A stretch of 39,458 bases of DNA from Gammaproteobacteria bacterium. Lineage in GTDB: Bacteria > Pseudomonadota > Gammaproteobacteria > UBA9214. This document shows, in pieces, positions 6,731 to 17,778 of the stretch (positions within the stretch are counted from its first letter, which is position 1; each line of letters begins with the position of its first letter). The translations under genes were made by a program, and so were the position numbers. The notes beneath the pieces were generated by a model. It was not told where the DNA came from. It was given only the letters and a program-made list of their open reading frames with translations, and searched no databases. The stretch is taken from contig JAJDNX010000054.1 in assembly GCA_022340485.1 (NCBI GenBank), positions 1 through 39,458 of the forward strand. Direction: 5' to 3'.

Positions 6731-6758
6731 GTATGCCTGTTTATATGAACAGACATAC
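6731..6758. repeat. Inverted repeat over the dsrE2 stop codon
   Basis: GTATGCCTGTT and AACAGACATAC pair at 10 of 11 positions around the 6-base loop TATATG. The repeat covers the last five codons of dsrE2, its TAA stop (6741-6743) and 10 bases beyond. In the mRNA it would fold the stop codon into a stem-loop. Together with the hairpins at 6684 and 6649 it makes three stem-loops within 110 bases. Confidence 0.55.
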
Positions 6759-7352
6759 ATCTGACTTCTGTGCAACAGGGAGGAATGAGGTTGCCCCGAC
6801 AAAGTCGGTGACTTCCGGTATAAACTCACTGGCATCGAAGCCGAACACGTCTACAGTCATTTGACAAGCAACCATTTTCACTTCAGCTTCCAGGCAAAGA
6901 CTGCGCAGCTCCTCTACAGTAGCCACACCCTTGTTCTTGAATGTCTTCTTCATCAGCCCAGTGGCAACATTCTCAAACCCCGGCACACCCGCCATTAGCA
7001 AGTTTGGCATCGGCCAGTCGAATTCCTGGAACCACTTCGGACCAAACGGCATCTTCATCGGCATCGCCGGATTACCAAGTGGACTGACCTTGGCATCAAG
7101 ATCTTTTTTCAGTAACAGCAGACCATAGAAGGTAAAGAACACTTCCACTTCCCAGCCTAGTGCGGCAGCAGTGGATGCCAGGATAAAGGGTGGGTATGCC
7201 CAGTCCAGTGTTCCCTTGGTAGCGATAATGGACATGGTAGGTGTTTTGGACGCTTCAATCTTTTCTAGCTTGGCGGGTAGTAATTCGTCCAGCTTTTTGT
7301 CCAACCAGGCATCCAGTTGTGCATTGCTTGGAGTGTTATCTGTAGTTGACAT
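6741..7352 (-). CDS. DsrE2-like DsrE/DsrF-family protein
   Basis: The 203-residue product resembles DsrE2-type proteins of the DsrE/F/H family, which in sulfur-oxidising bacteria carry or pass on cysteine-bound sulfane sulfur. It shows a charged N-terminal helix (about 1-36), the Rossmann-like core from SIIATKGTLDWAYPP, a hydrophobic stretch around 58-80, and the signature cysteines C153 and C163 in LCLEAEVKMVACQMT. A third cysteine, C200, is near the end. A GAGGAG ribosome site precedes the ATG. The rhodanese gene lies 203 bases upstream on the same strand. Cargo and partner are inferred from family and context. Confidence 0.85.
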   Translation of the reverse strand: MSTTDNTPSNAQLDAWLDKKLDELLPAKLEKIEASKTPTMSIIATKGTLDWAYPPFILASTAAALGWEVEVFFTFYGLLLLKKDLDAKVSPLGNPAMPMKMPFGPKWFQEFDWPMPNLLMAGVPGFENVATGLMKKTFKNKGVATVEELRSLCLEAEVKMVACQMTVDVFGFDASEFIPEVTDFVGATSFLPVAQKSDVCLFI

Positions 7353-7555: not shown

Positions 7556-7981
7556 TCAGCACTGCTCCCAAGGTAAGCCATGAAAACGCCAGCCACCCCG
7601 TGTCGAACGATGGTGGCTATCGTCTAGTTCCCCTTCAAAACCCTCGGACACATTGTATACCTCAATGAATTCCTTACTTATTAATAACTTACCTGCCTCA
7701 AGCGAGCGTTTTCCGCTGCGGCAGATCAGTACCACCGGTGCATCACTGCCGTGATTGTCCATACCGACACCACCGAGCATAACCTTGCGTACCTCTGTGA
7801 CAAAATTAGGATTTACGATCCAGTCCGGCTCATCTATCCAGGGTACATGAATACTTCCGCAAGGGTGCCCTACAAACAGGTACTCCATACTGGAACGAAC
7901 ATCGATCAAAACAGCGCGCTGGTTTTCCTGGATAAAGCTCCATGCCTCTGTGGGTGATAATGACTGAACTTTGATGACCAT
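7556..7981 (-). CDS. Rhodanese-like sulfurtransferase
   Basis: The 141-residue product is a single rhodanese domain. It begins MVIKVQSLSPTEAW, carries the CH2A-type stretch VLIDVRSSMEYLFVGHP with GSIHVPW, and the active-site loop CRSGKRS with the persulfide-forming C87. It ends in a second cysteine, C141. The loop composition fits thiosulfate or persulfide sulfurtransferases. The frame is open to 8047, but the ATG at 7981 has a GGAG ribosome site and matches the domain edge. dsrE2 lies downstream on the same strand, which recalls the rhd-tusA-dsrE2 clusters of sulfur oxidisers. No tusA is present here. Confidence 0.9.
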   Translation of the reverse strand: MVIKVQSLSPTEAWSFIQENQRAVLIDVRSSMEYLFVGHPCGSIHVPWIDEPDWIVNPNFVTEVRKVMLGGVGMDNHGSDAPVVLICRSGKRSLEAGKLLISKEFIEVYNVSEGFEGELDDSHHRSTRGGWRFHGLPWEQC

Positions 7982-8188
7982 GTAGAAATCTCCAGCTGCA
8001 CAGACAGCTTTAGATTGCATTCTGTAACTAACCGGCCAACTAGGCAAACATCTGTATAGATGAAACTAAACTTAGACTATCGGTTAGAGGGATGTGAAGA
8101 TATGCTGAACTTTTGGTTGATTGCGAGCTACACCAGTGTGTATTCATGATAGCGATCCCCTGATATAACACAACCGCCCTGCAATTGA

Positions 8189-9236: not shown

Positions 9237-10688
9237 CTAGCGTCGCCAGAATGCACGTGTAAACAGAATCATCAGGGTAAAAATCTCCAGCCTGCCGAGC
9301 ATCATGGCGAACGATAATGCCCACTTTGCAGGATCCGTCAGAGCAGTGAAATTCTTCCCCACGCCTGCCAGGCCGGGACCCAGATTATTCATGCACGCGG
9401 CGACAGCCGAAAATGCAGTGATCTGGTCCTCGCCGGTTGCCATCAGGAACAGCATGATGACAACAAAGCTGGCGACGTAAGCAGCAAAAAAACCCCACAC
9501 GGCACTAATAACCCGATCGGGCATTGGCTTGCCGCCGACCTTGACCGGTATCTGCGCATTTGGCCTTATCAGTCGCAAGGTTTCCCGATGCCCCTGTTTG
9601 AGCAGCAACAAGAACCGGATAACTTTCATACCACCACCTGTCGAACCGGCACAGCCACCGATAAAACTCACAAATAACAACATAACCGGCAAAAAACCAG
9701 GCCACTGAAAGTAATCTGCAGTCGTAAACCCGGTCGTGGTCCCGATAGAAACAGCCTGGAACAGTCCTGCATAGAGTGCCTCGTCAACGACTATGAATGT
9801 ATCTGTGTAGTACAGATAACCCACTGTGATAACGGTGACCAGTGCAAGCACCGTCAGATAGGTACGCAACTCGGAATCATGCAGGTAGGCCTTCAGGCTC
9901 AGTGACCGCCAGGCAACAAAATGCAGCGCAAAGTTCATGCCTGCAAACAGCATGAAGACCACTGCAATCATCTCGATACTGGTGCTTTGAAAAAAGCCGA
10001 TGCTTTCATCGTGGGTCGAAAATCCGCCAATCGCAATGGTAGAAAAACTATGGCCAATGGCATCAAAACCACTCATCCCGGCAAGCCAGAAGCACACTGC
10101 ACATACAATGGTCAGCGTCAAATATATGTACCAAAGTGCTTTTGCCGTCTCGGTAATACGCGGCGTCAACTTGGTATCTTTCAGGGGCCCCGGGGTTTCA
10201 GCACGGTACAATTGCATACCGCCCACACCAAGCATTGGCATAATGGCAACGGCCAGAACGATAATACCCATCCCACCCAGCCACTGCAGTTGCTGGCGAT
10301 AATACAACACTGACTCAGGAAGATTATCCAGTGCTGTGAGAACGGTAGCACCAGTGGTTGTCAACCCGGAAAAAGACTCGAATACGGCATCCGTAATCGA
10401 CATCTCCGGCTGGATAGACATTGCAAACGGCAAGGCACCTGCAAGACCCAGCACCAGCCAGAACAACACGACAATCAAAAAGCCGTCCCGCACACGGAGT
10501 TCATCCTTGAAACGCCTTGCAGGTAGCCACATGAGGCAACCCAGCACCAGCAGCGCAAACATGCCGTCCAGGAATACAACCATCTGTCCGTCATTGTAAA
10601 GCCAGGAAACGACGACAGGCGGCAACAGCGTAAGGCTGAACATCATCAGCAGTAAGCCAAGCAGTCGTTGAATAGACAGCAGGTGCAA
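9237..10688 (-). CDS. trkH: Trk potassium uptake membrane subunit TrkH
   Basis: TrkH is the potassium-translocating membrane subunit of the Trk system. The 483-residue product has four pore repeats with selectivity loops SGLTTTGATV, STIAIGGFSTHDES, GTTTGFTTADY and MNNLGPGLAGVG, and many hydrophobic helices. The start is TTG. An in-frame stop lies two codons upstream, and the start MHLLSIQRLLGLL fits the family N-terminus, so the TTG is well supported. trkA ends 58 bases upstream, so the two probably share a transcript. Confidence 0.96.
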   Translation of the reverse strand: MHLLSIQRLLGLLLMMFSLTLLPPVVVSWLYNDGQMVVFLDGMFALLVLGCLMWLPARRFKDELRVRDGFLIVVLFWLVLGLAGALPFAMSIQPEMSITDAVFESFSGLTTTGATVLTALDNLPESVLYYRQQLQWLGGMGIIVLAVAIMPMLGVGGMQLYRAETPGPLKDTKLTPRITETAKALWYIYLTLTIVCAVCFWLAGMSGFDAIGHSFSTIAIGGFSTHDESIGFFQSTSIEMIAVVFMLFAGMNFALHFVAWRSLSLKAYLHDSELRTYLTVLALVTVITVGYLYYTDTFIVVDEALYAGLFQAVSIGTTTGFTTADYFQWPGFLPVMLLFVSFIGGCAGSTGGGMKVIRFLLLLKQGHRETLRLIRPNAQIPVKVGGKPMPDRVISAVWGFFAAYVASFVVIMLFLMATGEDQITAFSAVAACMNNLGPGLAGVGKNFTALTDPAKWALSFAMMLGRLEIFTLMILFTRAFWRR

Positions 10689-10746: not shown

Positions 10747-12120
10747 TCAGAAAAAGGTAACTCCGACCTGGAACAAACGTTCAACTTCCTGAATACATTT
10801 CTTGTCAGCAAGGAACAAAATCACGTGATCATCAGTCTCGATCACTGTGTCGTGATGAGCAATAATGACCTCTTCACCGCGTACGACAGCACCAATCGTT
10901 GTACCTTTCGGCAACTTGATTTCATCAATGGACCTTCCTACTACCTTCGAACTGCCACGGTCACCATGAGCAACCGCCTCAATCGCTTCAGCCGCACCGC
11001 GCCGCAATGAATGCACCATGACAACATCGCCACGCCGCACATGTGTCAGCAAGCTGCCTATTGTTGCCTGCTGCGGCGAGATTGCGACATCGATAGTGCC
11101 ACTTTGCACCAAATTAACGTATGAAGCACGGTTAATCAGTGACATGACCTTGCGTGCTCCAAGACGTTTGGCAAGCATTGCTGAAAGTATATTGGCTTCC
11201 TCGTCATTGGTCAGTGCACAGAAGACATCAGTATTCTCTATGTTCTCTTCCAGCAACAACTCTTCATCTGCCGCATCGCCAAGCAGTACGATTGATTTAT
11301 CAAGTGTTTCCGAGAGCATCCGTGCACGCACTTCCTGCCGCTCGACAATCTTGACCTGATAGCGACTCTCGATTGCAGAGGCAAGGCGCATACCGATATT
11401 GCCACCACCTGCCAGCATTACCCTTTTTACCGCCTTGTCCATCTTGCGCAGCTCGCCCATTACAGCACGAATATGCTTGTGAGCAGCGATGAAAAAGACC
11501 TCGTCGTCGGCTTCGATAATGGTGTCACCTTCCGGCGCAATCGGCTTGCCCTGACGGAAAATTGATGCTACACGTGCCTCTATACCCGGCATGTGTTCTT
11601 TCAAGTCGCGTAACTCATGCCCCACCAGCGGACCACCATAGAAGGCATGCACGGCAACCAGCTGTACCTTGCCACCCGCAAAATCTAGCACCTGCAAGGC
11701 ACCGGGGTTTTCAATCAGGCGCTGTATATAGTCCGTCACCAGCTGCTCCGGACTGATAAGCACATCGACCGGCAGTGCTTCCTGTGCAAACAAGCGCATA
11801 TGGTTCAAATACTCAACCGAACGCACCCGTGCAATTTTCGTAGGTGTGTGAAACAGGGTATATGCGACCTGGCAGGCAATCATGTTGGTTTCGTCGCTAT
11901 TCGTAACAGCGATGATCATGTCGGCATCATCCGCACCCGCCTGCGCCAGCGTTTCCGGATGCGAAGCATGTCCCTTAACAGTACGAATGTCGAGCCGGCC
12001 CTGCAGCTCCTGCAGTGTGGCCGCATCTTCATCAACGACGGTGATATCGTTGGCTTCACTGGCCAGATTGGCTGCGACCGAGGCACCAACCTGACCGGCG
12101 CCCAGGATTATGATTTTCAT
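10747..12120 (-). CDS. trkA: Trk potassium uptake regulatory subunit TrkA
   Basis: TrkA is the cytoplasmic NAD(H)-binding gating ring of the Trk system. The 457-residue product has two RCK units, each with a Rossmann N-half ([16 protein letters not shown] at 1 and [17 protein letters not shown] near 235) and a TrkA_C half. Full length matches the two-unit E. coli form. It lies 56 bases downstream of ntrX and just upstream of trkH. Confidence 0.97.
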
Positions 12121-12176: not shown

Positions 12177-13544
12177 CTATTCGTTACCCTTCTTGTGGTC
12201 AATACCAAGGGCGCGCAATTTTCTGTACAGGTGGGTGCGTTCCATACCCACACGCTTGGCAAGTTTGCCAATACTGCCTCCAGATTCCATTAACTGATGC
12301 AGCAAGTAGTCGTGCTCGAATTTTTCTCGTGCCTCGCGTAATGGCAGGTCAAATGGCAAGACAGGTGCAGCAGACTGATCTGATACCGGGTGCGCGCTGA
12401 TCGCCTGTTCAACCTCTGCTACTTCAATCTCTTCACCCGAGCCAAGTATCAGCAGGCGCTGCACCAGGTTCTTCAACTCACGGATATTTCCAGGCCAGTC
12501 ATAGTTACGCAGCCGGTTCTGTGCTGCAACCGTAAAATGCCGGTACGTGAGTCTTTCATGGGTAACCAGGAAATTTATATAGTAATCCAGCAGTTCGTGG
12601 ACATCATCTGCATGCTCACGCAAAGCAGGAATATGCAAAGGCACAACATTCAGGTGATAAAACAGGTCATCTCTGAATCTGCCTGCACTCACTTCATTCT
12701 CCAGGTTACTCTGGGTGGTAGCAATGACTCGCAGATCAACCTCGACATTCTCAATGCCACCCAGCCGTGTAAAGGAATGTGTCTGGAACACACTCAACAG
12801 GCGCGTCTGGGTTTGCAAATCCATATCCGCAATATCACCGATACAAAGTGTGCCACCATTAGCTTGTTCAAGCCGCCCGTAATGAACCGTCTCCCCGTCT
12901 TCCGTGCCAAATAATTCCGCAGCGGAGTTTTCACCTGAAATTGAGCCGACCGCGATCTCGACAAAAGGTCCGTCACGACGGGCACTGTGACTGTGAATAT
13001 AGCGCGCGAAGGTACCTTTGCCGGCTCCCGCCTCTCCGCTAATCAGCACCCAGCTATTGTGTTGTGCGAGTTTCCTTGCCTGTTCGCGCAGTCGCATCAT
13101 TACTGGTGATTTGCCTTGCGGCTCAACAATCGGCTGGGAATGTTCCCGCAGATCCAGGTTTTCACGCTGCAGCCGCTCGCTCTCAAAGGCACGCTCTATC
13201 GTGAGCAATAGCTTGGCCAGTGAAATCGGCTTCTCGATAAAATCATACGCGCCCAGCCGGGTTGCTTCGACTGCGGTCTCCACAGTTCCGTGTCCTGACA
13301 TCATGACAACCGGGCAGGTCAATCCACCGTTTTCTGACCATTCGCGCAACAGGGTGATGCCATCAATATCTTCCATCCAGATATCAAGCAAAATCAGGTC
13401 CGGTCGCCGCAAGCGTCGTGCCTTGCGCGCAGCCTCGCCACCTTCCGCGGTGGCAACAGAGTAGCCCTCATCCTCGAGGACCTCCTGCACCAGATTGCGG
13501 ATATCTGGTTCATCATCAACAACGAGTATGTGTCGACTAGTCAT
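12177..13544 (-). CDS. ntrX: NtrX-like response regulator with a degenerate AAA+ domain
   Basis: The 455-residue product has a receiver domain (1-120; phosphorylated D54 in LILLDIW, K105 in EKP), a sigma-54-activator-type AAA+ domain (about 145-375) and a Fis-type helix-turn-helix (GSIGKLAKRVGMERTHLYRKL). It pairs with ntrY upstream. The AAA+ domain departs from active enhancer-binding proteins. Walker A is GEAGAGKG. The sigma-54 contact motif GAFTGA is absent (FGTEDGETVHYGRLE stands there). Walker B reads LCIGDI in place of LFLDEI. The second arginine-finger position is H297. It probably does not activate sigma-54 and may act as a plain DNA-binding regulator. A TATAAT on the minus strand at 13625-13630 may give it its own promoter. 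Confidence 0.93.
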   Translation of the reverse strand: MTSRHILVVDDEPDIRNLVQEVLEDEGYSVATAEGGEAARKARRLRRPDLILLDIWMEDIDGITLLREWSENGGLTCPVVMMSGHGTVETAVEATRLGAYDFIEKPISLAKLLLTIERAFESERLQRENLDLREHSQPIVEPQGKSPVMMRLREQARKLAQHNSWVLISGEAGAGKGTFARYIHSHSARRDGPFVEIAVGSISGENSAAELFGTEDGETVHYGRLEQANGGTLCIGDIADMDLQTQTRLLSVFQTHSFTRLGGIENVEVDLRVIATTQSNLENEVSAGRFRDDLFYHLNVVPLHIPALREHADDVHELLDYYINFLVTHERLTYRHFTVAAQNRLRNYDWPGNIRELKNLVQRLLILGSGEEIEVAEVEQAISAHPVSDQSAAPVLPFDLPLREAREKFEHDYLLHQLMESGGSIGKLAKRVGMERTHLYRKLRALGIDHKKGNE

Positions 13545-13658
13545 ACACCGTAACCTGCATTCATGAAATCCATGTATATCGACAGTACCACAGCTTGAGC
13601 AAACGGTTGTCCGGCCAGAAACGGATTATAGCCCACCCTGTCTGGCAGGTGTCGCTGC

Positions 13659-15875
13659 TCAGGGTAATGCCTGGCTTTCTGATCTCGATTCGCTTTCGCC
13701 TGATAATAAAAATCGAATCCTGACGAGCGCACCCCCAGCCTGGCTGGATTCGGCACTGATCGTCCCCCCATGCTCCTCTACAATCTTTTTCACTATCGCC
13801 AGCCCCAGCCCGCTTCCCTTGGGTTTTGTTGATACATAGGGCTCGAATATATTTTCCAGAACATCCGGCTTGAAGCCGGGCCCGTTGTCATCTACACAGA
13901 GTTCAATCTGTTTCGATCCTTTCCCCCCGACACGGTTAGTCGCTACAATGATTCGGGCATCAGGCACATCCTTGACCGCCTCCAGCGCATTCTTGATCAG
14001 GTTATGCAACAGCTGACGCAAACGTCCAGCGTCTCCCTCGATAACATCATATTCGGCGTCAAGCTGCTCAATGATCTGAACATCCAGACTGTTGCTTCGG
14101 TAGAGATCCATAACCTCCCGAACGAGACCGTTTAAACTCATCGCCTCCATGCACAGGTTAGGTGCCCTGGCATATTCGCTAAAGGCATTCACCATCTTCT
14201 TCATAGCATCTACCTGATTGACTATGGTATGGGTCGCCCTGTCAAGCACCTCGGCATCCTCGGCATCCATTCGTGACAGATAACGACGCCGTAATCGTTC
14301 CGCGGACAATTGTATGGGTGTTAGCGGATTCTTGATTTCGTGTGCCAGGCGGCGTGCCACTTCACCCCATGCAGCATCACGTTGTGCCTGTATCAGCGTA
14401 GTGACGTCATCAAATACGATGACCAGTCCTCCGGCACGCTTGCCCTTGCCACCCAGCACGGAGCCCCGACACATCAGTACCTGATGGCCACTGGCCCCGA
14501 ACAACGTAATTTCTTCCTCCCAGGAATTATCACCCTCAGTACGGTGTCTAGTGATCGCATCCACAAAGTGATGCAAATGCTCATTTTCTGATGCAAGAAA
14601 CGATAATTCACGGCCAACAAATTGTTTGGAATCTATACCTAGGCTCTTGCTGGCTGTCCGGTTGATGGCACGCACCACTGAATCAGCACTCATGCTGATG
14701 ACTCCCGACGACAGGTTGGCAAGTACCGCTTCCAGATAGGCACGCTGGCCTTCTATCTGCTGCTGCCCACGTATGGTCTGCTCGCGAGACCTGGCGAGGC
14801 GTCGTGTCATCTCGTTGAATGAGCGCACCAGAAAGCCAAGTTCGTCTTCGCTGGCGACCGAGAGACGCTTGCTGTAATCACCCTCAGCAACAGCATGTGT
14901 TGCTTCAGCCAGGTCACGCACCGGTGCAACCAGGCGGCGTGCAGATTGAAACGCGGCCCAGATCGCTGACAGCAAACTCAATACCAGTACGACAGACAGG
15001 GTCAGGCTATAGCTGAATTTCAGTGGCGCTCGCAGGTAGGACAGTTCCTTGTAGCGTGTATAGGCAGACTGAACGTTCTCCGCAAGCATACTGAAGCGCT
15101 CTGACACCTCATACAAAGCCTGCAGGGTGTAGACCTCGTTGTCGGAACGTGAAGACAACACCGGCACCAGCGCACGTGCATACAGGCCACTGTCGCCAAT
15201 GGGATCGAGTCCAATATAATGCTTTCGATTACGCATCAACGTCATCATTTCGCCCGGTGGCTGGTCAGGAATAATATGGGAAATGTCTGAACTGCTGGAG
15301 GCAACAATCCGGCCATCGCCACCAATTAATGTTAACTCGGCTGCACCGCTCCTGACGCGGTGATCGTACAGTGTCAGCGACAGTGTTGCTGGTGCCGCAT
15401 CGGCAAGGTCTTCTGCCATGCGCACGGTGAGATTCAGTAAATCTACGAGCCTGACATCCAGAGCCGCCCTGCTGAGATCAAGCGCATTATCCAGACCTTG
15501 CTCAATCCTCACGTCAAACCAGCTGTCAATGCCACGTTGCAGGAACTGCAGCGAAAAGTAATAAACGACGGACACTGGCACCACGGCAAGAATGACAAAC
15601 ATCACGACCAGCCGACTCGTCATGCGTGCACCTGGAACCTTCATACGCTGTTGACGTACCAGGCTGATGATATTTGCTGCCACTAGTGCCATGAGAAATA
15701 CCAGTGCAGCTGCATTGACCAGCAACAGCACGGAATACATCTGGCCGAATCGTTCAGAGTTATGGGTTGCGCCGCTCAATAGTGACAGTGACACTAGCAA
15801 CAGACCGAATAACGCCAGCATCGGCAGGATGCTGAAACCAGTGCGTTTTATCGTAGCAGCGGCCATTTGTACCAT
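13659..15875 (-). CDS. ntrY: NtrY-like membrane sensor histidine kinase
   Basis: NtrY kinases sense an envelope or redox/nitrogen signal and phosphorylate NtrX. From the ATG at 15875 the product has 738 residues. There are three N-terminal membrane helices, a periplasmic or extracytoplasmic region (about 115-285), a fourth helix (about 290-310), HAMP (about 312-365), a PAS domain (about 375-490), and a HisKA domain with H512 in RLAHEIKNPLTP. The ATPase follows with DNGPGFKPDVLENIFEPYVS and GSGLGLAIVKK. ATG 15866 and TTG 15893 are other possible starts. Its 5' end overlaps the DUF4390 gene. Confidence 0.94.
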   Translation of the reverse strand: MVQMAAATIKRTGFSILPMLALFGLLLVSLSLLSGATHNSERFGQMYSVLLLVNAAALVFLMALVAANIISLVRQQRMKVPGARMTSRLVVMFVILAVVPVSVVYYFSLQFLQRGIDSWFDVRIEQGLDNALDLSRAALDVRLVDLLNLTVRMAEDLADAAPATLSLTLYDHRVRSGAAELTLIGGDGRIVASSSSDISHIIPDQPPGEMMTLMRNRKHYIGLDPIGDSGLYARALVPVLSSRSDNEVYTLQALYEVSERFSMLAENVQSAYTRYKELSYLRAPLKFSYSLTLSVVLVLSLLSAIWAAFQSARRLVAPVRDLAEATHAVAEGDYSKRLSVASEDELGFLVRSFNEMTRRLARSREQTIRGQQQIEGQRAYLEAVLANLSSGVISMSADSVVRAINRTASKSLGIDSKQFVGRELSFLASENEHLHHFVDAITRHRTEGDNSWEEEITLFGASGHQVLMCRGSVLGGKGKRAGGLVIVFDDVTTLIQAQRDAAWGEVARRLAHEIKNPLTPIQLSAERLRRRYLSRMDAEDAEVLDRATHTIVNQVDAMKKMVNAFSEYARAPNLCMEAMSLNGLVREVMDLYRSNSLDVQIIEQLDAEYDVIEGDAGRLRQLLHNLIKNALEAVKDVPDARIIVATNRVGGKGSKQIELCVDDNGPGFKPDVLENIFEPYVSTKPKGSGLGLAIVKKIVEEHGGTISAESSQAGGALVRIRFLLSGESESRSESQALP

Positions 15876-16465
15876 TTGCTCACCATGCTCCAATCCGAGG
15901 ACACGTAAGCCAGTAAACGCACCGGTGTTGGCAGCGATTCAACATCCAGACTGCCTCTGAGCCGGATGCTGTATTTTGGACCCCGGTCCAGCGACTGGTC
16001 GGTTAAGAGCAAATTTCTGATTTTACCTGCTGCCCGTAATGCATCATCCAGGCGACGATAGTTGCCCTGTGTACCAGCATTGAGGTCCTTGACCTGATAA
16101 CTTTGGCTAAGGGCATGGTATTGCAGTGAGCGGCGTTCGGTTATCTCGATTTCAACGGAATCCCACAGCCAGGTATGTGTCTCAACAACCTGCACCTGCA
16201 GCTCAAATACCAGCGGAATGGCGCTTTGCACGGCTTCCTCGGCACCCGAACTCAAGTCAATGGAGAACTGTGCTTCCAGGTAATCTTTACCATCGCTTCG
16301 CCAGGTGTGTGCATCCTCGAGCTTGACTGTTCCGGGATGTCCTGCACAAACCTGTGTCGGAAAATAGCAGATTGCTGACAGCAACAGCAGAACTACCCGA
16401 CAGCGGAATAAACCGGTGACAGAGGATATCGAAAAAGAAATTGTTAACCGAGCTTGCGCAAACAT
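15848..16465 (-). CDS. DUF4390 protein, exported
   Basis: The 205-residue product matches the DUF4390 family, whose function is not known and whose gene usually precedes an ntrY homologue. An N-terminal hydrophobic stretch (RVVLLLLSAICYFPTQVCA, ending near residue 42) looks like a signal peptide with cleavage after VCA. The rest is polar and beta-rich in appearance, with ARRL-free spacing and a tryptophan-rich C-terminus (SDWSMVSKWYKWPLL). It overlaps the rsmB 3' end by 22 bases and the ntrY start by 28, so it is probably translated in step with both. An envelope role linked to NtrY sensing is an inference. Confidence 0.85.
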   Translation of the reverse strand: MFAQARLTISFSISSVTGLFRCRVVLLLLSAICYFPTQVCAGHPGTVKLEDAHTWRSDGKDYLEAQFSIDLSSGAEEAVQSAIPLVFELQVQVVETHTWLWDSVEIEITERRSLQYHALSQSYQVKDLNAGTQGNYRRLDDALRAAGKIRNLLLTDQSLDRGPKYSIRLRGSLDVESLPTPVRLLAYVSSDWSMVSKWYKWPLLR

Positions 16466-17745
16466 GCGAAATAAAATCCATCCATTTCATTTTCACCCGG
16501 TAATATCTGCCTGCCGTGCCCGCAAACACGCCCCCATGAAGCTCTTATTGGCACTTCTTCTGCATCAATCTGCATTTCGAGAAAGCGGCCAACCTGGCCA
16601 ATGTTCTCATCTCGCAACACCGAACAGGTACAGTACAAGAGCATACCGCCTGGCACCAGCAAGGGCCATAGTGCCTTCAGCAAACGCGCCTGTCTGGAGA
16701 CGAGTGTCGCAACGTCACCTGGCTTGCGCAGCAACTTGATATCAGGATGCCGGCGAATCACACCGGTTGCACTACACGGGACATCCAGAAGAATACGGTC
16801 ATAGGGTTGACCATCCCACCAGCCCTGTGGTTCTCCGGCATCGCCCTGCTGCAGGTGAGCAGATAATGACAAGCGCACCAGGTTTTCTTCAATGCGTCGC
16901 AGCCGGTGCCCGTCGATATCAAGCGCGGTCAGGCCGGAAAGACCAGGCTCTGCCTCGAGTATGTGTGCCGTTTTTCCGCCCGGCGCCGCACAGGCATCCA
17001 GCACCCGCAGACCCGGAGCAAGTGCCAGCAATCCGGCAGCCAGTTGCGCAGCACCATCCTGTACCGATACCACACCTTCAGAAAAGCCGGGCAAGTTCTC
17101 CACCGGCAGTGGCTTTTTCAACAACAGACCTGTAAGGACCTGCGGTAATGGCGTAGCCGCTATTGACCGGGCCGCCAATTCATCAAGGTATTCCTCCCTG
17201 GTCACGCGGCACTGATTAACGCGTAAACTGAACGGTGGTCGAGCATTATTTGCGGACAATATGTTTTCCCAGTTATCCGGCCAGTCAGCTTGCAGCCACT
17301 TCACAAGCCAGGCTGGATGCGCATATTTCATCTCGACAGCAGAATCCCCCGTCACCTCCAGCGAATCAGCACGGCGCAGATAGTTGCGTAACACGGCATT
17401 CACCAGCCCCCGCGCCCAGGATTTGTTCAATGTTACTGTTGCCTGCACCGTCTCATTAACCGCTACCCGCTGCGGCATTGCCAGCTGCATTAGCTGGTAC
17501 AAGCCGATCAGCAACAGGCAGCGAATATCGGCATCCCGCTGTTTCAGAGGCTTTTGCAGAAGCTGCTTGAGAACCGCATCCAGTTGGTAATACCAGCGCA
17601 AGGTACCATATGCCAGTTCCTGGATCAGTGCCCGCTGACGCACGTCTTCCACAAACTGCACGGCCTCGGGCAGTGCCTCTGCAAGTGAATGCCCGCTGGA
17701 AATAACCCGTACCAATACCCGGACAGCGCAGGCACGGGCATCCAT
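16444..17745 (-). CDS. rsmB: 16S rRNA m5C967 methyltransferase RsmB
   Basis: RsmB (Sun/Fmu) methylates cytosine 967 of 16S rRNA using S-adenosylmethionine. The roughly 433-residue product has the N-terminal NusB-like domain (about 1-135) and the methyltransferase domain with the SAM site LDACAAPGGKTAHILE. The release cysteine is C324 in DVPCSATGV and the catalytic cysteine is C374 in YCTCSVL. The ATG at 17745 is favoured because GGTGGG (17753-17758) lies 7 bases before it. ATG 17751 and GTG 17757 are also in frame. fmt lies 33 bases upstream. Confidence 0.96.
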   Translation of the reverse strand: MDARACAVRVLVRVISSGHSLAEALPEAVQFVEDVRQRALIQELAYGTLRWYYQLDAVLKQLLQKPLKQRDADIRCLLLIGLYQLMQLAMPQRVAVNETVQATVTLNKSWARGLVNAVLRNYLRRADSLEVTGDSAVEMKYAHPAWLVKWLQADWPDNWENILSANNARPPFSLRVNQCRVTREEYLDELAARSIAATPLPQVLTGLLLKKPLPVENLPGFSEGVVSVQDGAAQLAAGLLALAPGLRVLDACAAPGGKTAHILEAEPGLSGLTALDIDGHRLRRIEENLVRLSLSAHLQQGDAGEPQGWWDGQPYDRILLDVPCSATGVIRRHPDIKLLRKPGDVATLVSRQARLLKALWPLLVPGGMLLYCTCSVLRDENIGQVGRFLEMQIDAEEVPIRASWGRVCGHGRQILPGENEMDGFYFACLRKLG

Positions 17746-17778
17746 TGTCATACCCACCGGTCAGTCCAGAGGCTATTT

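Follow-up and report, generated by a model that had tools for sequence, protein, structure and literature searches.

The window, that is, the whole stretch of 39,458 nucleotides analysed here, carries on its minus strand a run of six genes in the order rsmB - DUF4390 - ntrY - ntrX - trkA - trkH. The genes of this cluster, together with a conserved hexamer in front of ntrX, are the following:

16444-17757, minus strand: rsmB
15848-16465, minus strand: gene for a DUF4390 protein (PF14334, E 1.1e-40), a PlrP homologue, adjoining ntrY
13659-15893, minus strand: ntrY, the partner histidine kinase, with NtrY_N, HAMP, PAS, HisKA and HATPase_c domains
13625-13630, minus strand: TATAAT, a -10-like hexamer upstream of ntrX, conserved in the family
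12177-13544, minus strand: ntrX, an open reading frame whose translation of 455 aa is ordered receiver - AAA+ - Fis-type HTH
10747-12120, minus strand: trkA, 56 bp downstream of ntrX
9237-10688, minus strand: trkH

Elsewhere in the window, DsrE/DsrF-like and rhodanese-like proteins are encoded side by side (6741-7352 and 7556-8047), a hint of sulfur metabolism, and a histidine kinase of Pfam family PF06580 (38147-39223) is found towards one end of the window, in the neighbourhood of hemC and hemD.

The ntrX frame is open throughout, and its product displays Pfam matches to Response_reg, Sigma54_activat, AAA_lid_14 and HTH_8. Brucella NtrX is its top PDB match (5m7n, E 1.5e-105), and NAssimRespRegNtrX is its top NCBIfam model with 476 bits; since this score lies below the curated cut-off of 600 of the NCBIfam equivalog NF051870, we class it as NtrX solely in a broad sense, that is, as a receiver, AAA+ and Fis-type HTH protein whose best named model and structure match are NtrX. 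Its domains and catalytic sites map as follows:

13185-13544, minus strand: receiver domain (residues 1-120), with D10, D11, D54, S83 and K105 present
12621-13127, minus strand: AAA+ core with a degenerate catalytic site (residues 140-308)
13014-13037, minus strand: Walker A, GEAGAGKG, with Lys176 kept and the Glu after the Lys replaced by Gly177
12951-12953, minus strand: switch Asn position, occupied by Ala198
12873-12920, minus strand: site of the missing GAFTGA loop (residues 209-224)
12831-12848, minus strand: Walker B, LCIGDI, with the canonical Asp replaced by Gly236 and the Glu by Asp237
12654-12677, minus strand: RxDxxxR motif, FRDDLFYH, with R291 and D293 kept and the second Arg replaced by His297
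12480-12482, minus strand: sensor II Arg355, kept
12375-12620, minus strand: AAA+ lid (residues 309-390), Pfam match
12201-12335, minus strand: Fis-type HTH DNA-binding domain (residues 404-448), Pfam match

The preliminary description of this DNA had called the AAA+ domain triply degenerate, naming the lack of GAFTGA, the Walker B LCIGDI and H297. All three departures are present where it had placed them, and the span that it gave, 12654-13037, runs exactly from Gly170 of Walker A to His297; the count itself falls short, as Ala198 and Gly177 are two further changed sites. Opposite the GAFTGA loop the alignment shows LFGTEDGETVHYGRLEQANGG; the loop site spans 16 aligned residues, versus 21 in loop-bearing proteins. 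Altogether, five of the nine canonical catalytic residues are changed, while Lys176, R291, D293 and R355 remain, and the protein lacks the marks of a bEBP: GAFTGA is absent, Walker B carries Gly-Asp and the last arginine of RxDxxxR is His297. The fold is nevertheless formed in the AlphaFold model (mean pLDDT 84), in which ten-residue blocks from 141 to 380 score between 82 and 93, except for 73 at 201-210. Among the nearest folds of this model are Brucella NtrX, NtrC1 and the AAA+ domains of FleQ/FlrC, and Vibrio VpsR is a fold match as well.

What these changes would mean for catalysis can be gauged from PspF, whose positions were matched by motif and by the usual PspF numbering. The NtrX of the window is changed at the positions of PspF D107, R168, N64 and E43 together and has Asp in place of E108; only the His at the R168 position is a letter tested in PspF, the others being different substitutions. 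Reported ATPase activities of PspF are 39.5 per min for the wild type, 0.23 for D107A, 0.43 for R168H, 1.50 for N64Q and 1.37 for E43A, with a Km above 5000 uM for R168H (PMC3419264). Because four such positions are changed in combination, ATP hydrolysis by the NtrX of the window is, by this analogy, unlikely.

A first question is whether these states are peculiar to one assembly, which is fragmented (161 contigs). We searched the 23 genomes of the same family, an order-level search returning the identical 23, and obtained a strong NtrX match in 21 of them, all 21 proteins being distinct; of the two others, G013 has an NtrX fragment only (residues 1-112, 88% identical) and the best match in G008 is a paralogue (35% identical). 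GAFTGA is absent and the switch position is Ala in 21/21. At Walker B, 15 of the proteins carry Gly-Asp and six carry Ser-Asp; 20 have His297 and one has Gln there, Lys176 is kept in 20, and none of the 21 matches contains an in-frame stop. With the same procedure, the NtrC proteins of the family, which share the receiver-AAA+-HTH order, kept GAFTGA, GESGTGKE, LDE, FREDL[FY]HR and WPGN.R in 17/17, so that loop, Walker, RxDxxxR and sensor II are intact, and matched the switch-Asn pattern in 15/17; one of them that was scanned (L002) passes the NtrC cut-offs. The canonical state of NtrC speaks against an assembly error. The preliminary description had asked for an alignment of close relatives at its three sites and a tree, and had counted canonical motifs in those relatives as a sign of sequencing error; instead the pattern is shared by 21 distinct proteins from separate genomes. 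Given also an open frame under purifying selection, a sequencing error, an assembly error or a pseudogene has a negligible probability, and private decay or error as the cause of the motif losses is ruled out by the relatives.

Selection on the domain was compared with that on NtrC in the 13 genomes that hold both. The AAA+ core is 82.6% identical in NtrX (dN 0.121, median dN/dS 0.059) and 91.5% identical in NtrC (dN 0.054, median dN/dS 0.033); these ratios are rough, as synonymous sites are saturated in many pairs (depending on the NtrX domain, between 4 and 35 of 78 pairs gave no dS), while the identities are unaffected. The receiver shows the reverse, with 88.6% identity in NtrX versus 75.5% in NtrC, and the HTH domains are equal (85.5% versus 86.2%). 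Thus the most conserved domain is AAA+ in NtrC and the receiver in NtrX. The AAA+ domain of NtrX is still constrained, apparently no longer as a motor.

The comparison was then widened to the class, which includes the betaproteobacteria. NtrX was found at E 1e-95 in 225 of 369 class genomes. From 261 candidates scoring 260 or more, 34 duplicates and one short row were dropped, giving an alignment of 226 distinct proteins: 185 gamma/beta-type NtrX, 13 alpha NtrX and 28 loop-bearing relatives. "Gamma/beta" is our own label, most of these genomes belonging to the class of the window, and the set comprises proteins scoring above 385 plus four lower rows added by hand (L074, L075, L229, L263). The 28 outgroup loops read GAFTGA in 18 cases; the other 10 differ slightly from it, for example as GAFTSA or GSFTGA. 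Read at the loop, GAFTGA is found in 0/185 gamma/beta-type proteins, where a loose pattern flagged only AGAFER (L266 and L276) and GAVTPG (L213), and it is absent from 13/13 alphas. This bears out the earlier remark that other NtrX lack the motif, as do the published cases of Caulobacter NtrX (PMC10274813) and one Thioalkalivibrio NtrX, that of T. thiocyanoxidans (PMC5744179).

Beyond the loop, the catalytic residues are widely lost in the gamma/beta-type proteins. Kept in the 185 are K176 in 151, R291 in 167 and R355 in 153, and N198 in 15, D236 in 67, E237 in 80 and R297 in 22; the second arginine is thus lost in 163, mostly to His or Gln (123), and the Walker B Asp in 118. The six key residues K, D, E, R, R and R are all present in 28/28 outgroup proteins and 13/13 alphas versus 9/185 gamma/beta-type proteins, and the switch Asn in 26/28, 9/13 and 15/185, respectively. 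Four of nine catalytic residues lost is the mode (57 proteins); 39 proteins, among them that of the window, have lost five and 31 have lost six or more. The Walker B and finger changes, viewed earlier as possible further decay of this one protein, are therefore clade-wide and recurrent, and with five losses against a mode of four the NtrX of the window is nothing special but typical of NtrX in gammaproteobacteria. Not all of the clade is dead, since nine of 185 keep the six residues and one protein, L272, keeps all nine while having no GAFTGA. L272 offers itself as a natural control for ATPase activity without sigma-54 contact.

A tree was built from 93 of the 226 rows (52 of the 185 gamma/beta-type), chosen by similarity to the NtrX of the window, with the catalytic columns and the loop left out. 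Loop-less NtrX forms one clade (100/97), within which gamma/beta (100/100) and alpha (100/98) proteins each form one clade; the four rows placed by hand fell inside the former, and the NtrX of the window groups with the alphas in the NtrX clade, apart from the loop-bearing relatives. A quick tree that takes in all 226 rows requires, as a minimum, 14 two-state changes for K176, 18 for N198, 26 for D236, 24 for E237, 10 for R291, 11 for R297 and 19 for R355. The loop state needs two changes there, one of which we read as the longer variant loop of SAR116 alphas. Since the outgroups are canonical, these changes are probably losses rather than gains, with a method that by itself infers no root.

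Further stages were met by way of the DUF4390 gene, which has a match in 243 of the 369 class genomes. Stretches from seven genomes with DUF4390 and no NtrX match were examined, and four held a complete ntrX. L303 (234 aa) and L304 (240 aa) are NtrX frames with receiver and HTH that have no AAA+ domain and lie in the order rsmB-DUF4390-ntrY-ntrX, while L305 and L306, with 430 and 438 aa, have an eroded AAA+ domain and are apparent intermediates towards its loss. Betaproteobacterial NtrX without an AAA+ domain has been reported (PMC13001219, citing Bonato 2016), whereas the NtrX of the window keeps the domain in full length; as a likeness to PlrR and beta NtrX (Bordetella, Herbaspirillum), similar receiver and HTH domains are seen in the AAA+-less L303 and L304. 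As far as residues tell, the gamma/beta clade, whose motor is largely dead, stands between alpha NtrX, which has its ATPase residues but no loop, and AAA+-less beta NtrX.

Such a series raises the alternative that the AAA+ domain is a functionless leftover in the course of being lost, as the loss in betaproteobacteria would suggest. The recurrence of the catalytic losses and the relatives with shrunken or absent domains agree with it, and single in-frame stops in the NtrX rows of G102, G194, G147 and G260 may do so as well. AAA+ core and lid are also the most variable domains within gamma/beta-type NtrX, a survey-wide contrast that mixes groups of unequal breadth and for which the 13-genome comparison with NtrC is the matched test. 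There, a dN/dS near 0.06 and an identity close to that of the HTH domain do not fit a domain free to decay; nor do the absence of stops in the family matches, the uniform length of the loop stretch (16 residues in 156/185) or the good confidence of the modelled fold. We consider a passive remnant improbable.

Could the protein still be a sigma-54 activator with unusual residues? Its genome has rpoN, as do 218 of the 225 NtrX-bearing class genomes by a Sigma54_DBD match. The other seven have no such match, nor a Sigma54_CBD match, but each of the five that were searched encodes two or more strong sigma-54 activator domains in addition to NtrX, including a canonical NtrC-like protein in G060 (99% complete), which makes assembly gaps the likelier cause of the missing rpoN. 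However, six other activators with GAFTGA or GSFTGA are encoded in the genome of the window and can account for rpoN there, and the window has no excess of sigma-54-like sites over chance (40 with up to two mismatches versus 33.6 expected; 16 of 100 shuffles reach 40). Set against a loop missing from all 185 proteins and five changed catalytic positions, continued sigma-54 activation is very improbable. This part of the interpretation in the preliminary description holds up: the AAA+ domain has probably lost its ATPase activity and would be unable to act on sigma-54.

Absence of the loop alone does not imply independence from ATP, as Caulobacter NtrC, without GAFTGA, is reported to need its Walker A and B residues in vivo (PMC10274813). 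Together with Rhodobacter capsulatus NtrC and Vibrio VpsR (printed there as VspR) it belongs to the loop-less NtrC-family proteins that act with sigma-70 at other promoters (PMC10274813), and the Walker B residues that it needs are those commonly lost in gamma NtrX. A closer likeness is alpha NtrX of Brucella abortus (PDB 5m7n/5m7o/5m7p), the best sequence and fold match, which has the same domain order and no GAFTGA; alpha NtrX is likewise partnered by NtrY. Unlike the NtrX of the window, sampled alphas keep the six key ATPase residues.

A second alternative is that the AAA+ domain serves as a nucleotide sensor, in which binding without useful hydrolysis sets the oligomeric state and DNA affinity. 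With Lys176, the P-loop glycines, R291, D293 and R355 kept, the NtrX of the window may bind nucleotide, or hydrolyse it slowly via Asp237. Among gamma/beta-type proteins Gly170 is kept in 185/185, Gly175 in 180/185 and the lysine in most, and the Walker A Lys varies much less (32nd entropy percentile in AAA+ and lid) than the switch Asn (86th) or the Walker B Asp (85th). By their titles, the PDB entries of Brucella NtrX include crystals with ATP and others with ADP, and R. capsulatus NtrC gives a precedent, as it is reported to require ATP binding and not hydrolysis (PMC10274813). Yet the lysine is lost in 34/185 and L303 and L304 do without the domain; the P-loop glycines may serve the fold, and the Km of PspF R168H would imply weak nucleotide use with His297 (PMC3419264). 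A sensor is a possibility to be taken seriously, though we hold it to be unlikely.

Whatever the AAA+ domain does, the input and the neighbourhood of NtrX are conserved. The receiver residues D10, D11, D54 (the phosphoacceptor), S83 and K105 are invariant in 185/185 gamma/beta-type proteins, which makes plausible the control by phosphorylation that had been proposed. The ntrY gene lies directly upstream of ntrX in the window and in 118 of the 132 gamma/beta-type loci whose upstream sequence is long enough. As in a PlrPSR-type cluster, rsmB and the DUF4390 gene lie 5' of ntrYX in the window; among 131 such loci, DUF4390 is present in 116 and rsmB in 114. Downstream of ntrX, in loci with enough sequence, trkA was found in 137/172 and trkH in 82/127. 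The window reproduces the gene order described for Bordetella PlrR, rsmB-plrP-plrS-plrR-trkA-trkH, whereas nine compared alphas have ntrBC, not rsmB-DUF4390, 5' of ntrYX (PMC13001219). Genetic evidence makes PlrP (DUF4390) a third component of the Bordetella plrSR two-component system; rsmB, trkA and trkH are reported there to be dispensable in the infection model used, and the cluster to have internal promoters (PMC13001219). As for trkAH, the idea that NtrX regulates these nearby genes came from gene order and finds no support, linkage to ntrX not showing regulation.

In 15 of 17 aligned family members the hexamer TATAAT stands 70-112 bp in front of ntrX, mostly preceded by TG.G. Of 184 upstream regions 33 contain it, versus about five after resampling; 15 of these come from the family relatives and the other 18 from the remaining 167 regions. 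The hexamer does not appear in the promoter-scan list. On conservation, we suggest that it is a candidate ntrX promoter. This would fit an internal promoter such as that reported in the 3' end of Bordetella plrS (PMC13001219). For the DNA bound by NtrX itself, the published half-site is GCAn9TGC (PMC7240162).

Altogether, we put at roughly 0.8 the probability that NtrX of this kind is an ATPase-dead, sigma-54-independent regulator that uses its AAA+ fold as a scaffold. The sigma-54-touching GAFTGA loop would already have been gone in the ancestor shared with alpha NtrX; the ATPase residues, thereby freed in the gamma/beta line, would next have been lost repeatedly in differing combinations; and in betaproteobacteria the AAA+ domain would have shrunk and then vanished. 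In present proteins, NtrY would phosphorylate Asp54, and the DUF4390 protein may take part as a third partner. The receiver and the AAA+ fold, the latter as a non-catalytic assembly scaffold, would place the Fis-type HTH domains on DNA, where ordinary sigma-70-type RNA polymerase may be activated or repressed by contact or blocking, without ATP-driven remodelling. It is conceivable, if rather doubtful, that the AAA+ ring has become a permanently assembled, nucleotide-independent scaffold, phosphorylation alone setting DNA binding. Loss of the second RxDxxxR arginine would then mimic PspF, in which changes at R162, D164 or R168 are reported to give constitutive hexamers, with little ATPase activity (PMC3419264).

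The lack of GAFTGA in NtrX and of the AAA+ domain in beta NtrX was already known; no description of a class-wide eroded stage was found in the literature searched, which was covered in part. The NCBI naming of such NtrX implies a sigma-54 activator. Acidithiobacillia NtrX is likewise taken to activate nitrogen genes through sigma-54 (PMC12194929). Should the gamma clade have a dead motor, regulons predicted under this label would have to be revised. If the proposed history is true, the family preserves the steps by which a motor is dismantled: full motor, loop loss, catalytic loss and domain loss. The NtrX family would thus be a natural series of how a transcription factor outlives its motor, one that would separate the AAA+ residues needed for fold and assembly from those needed for catalysis only.
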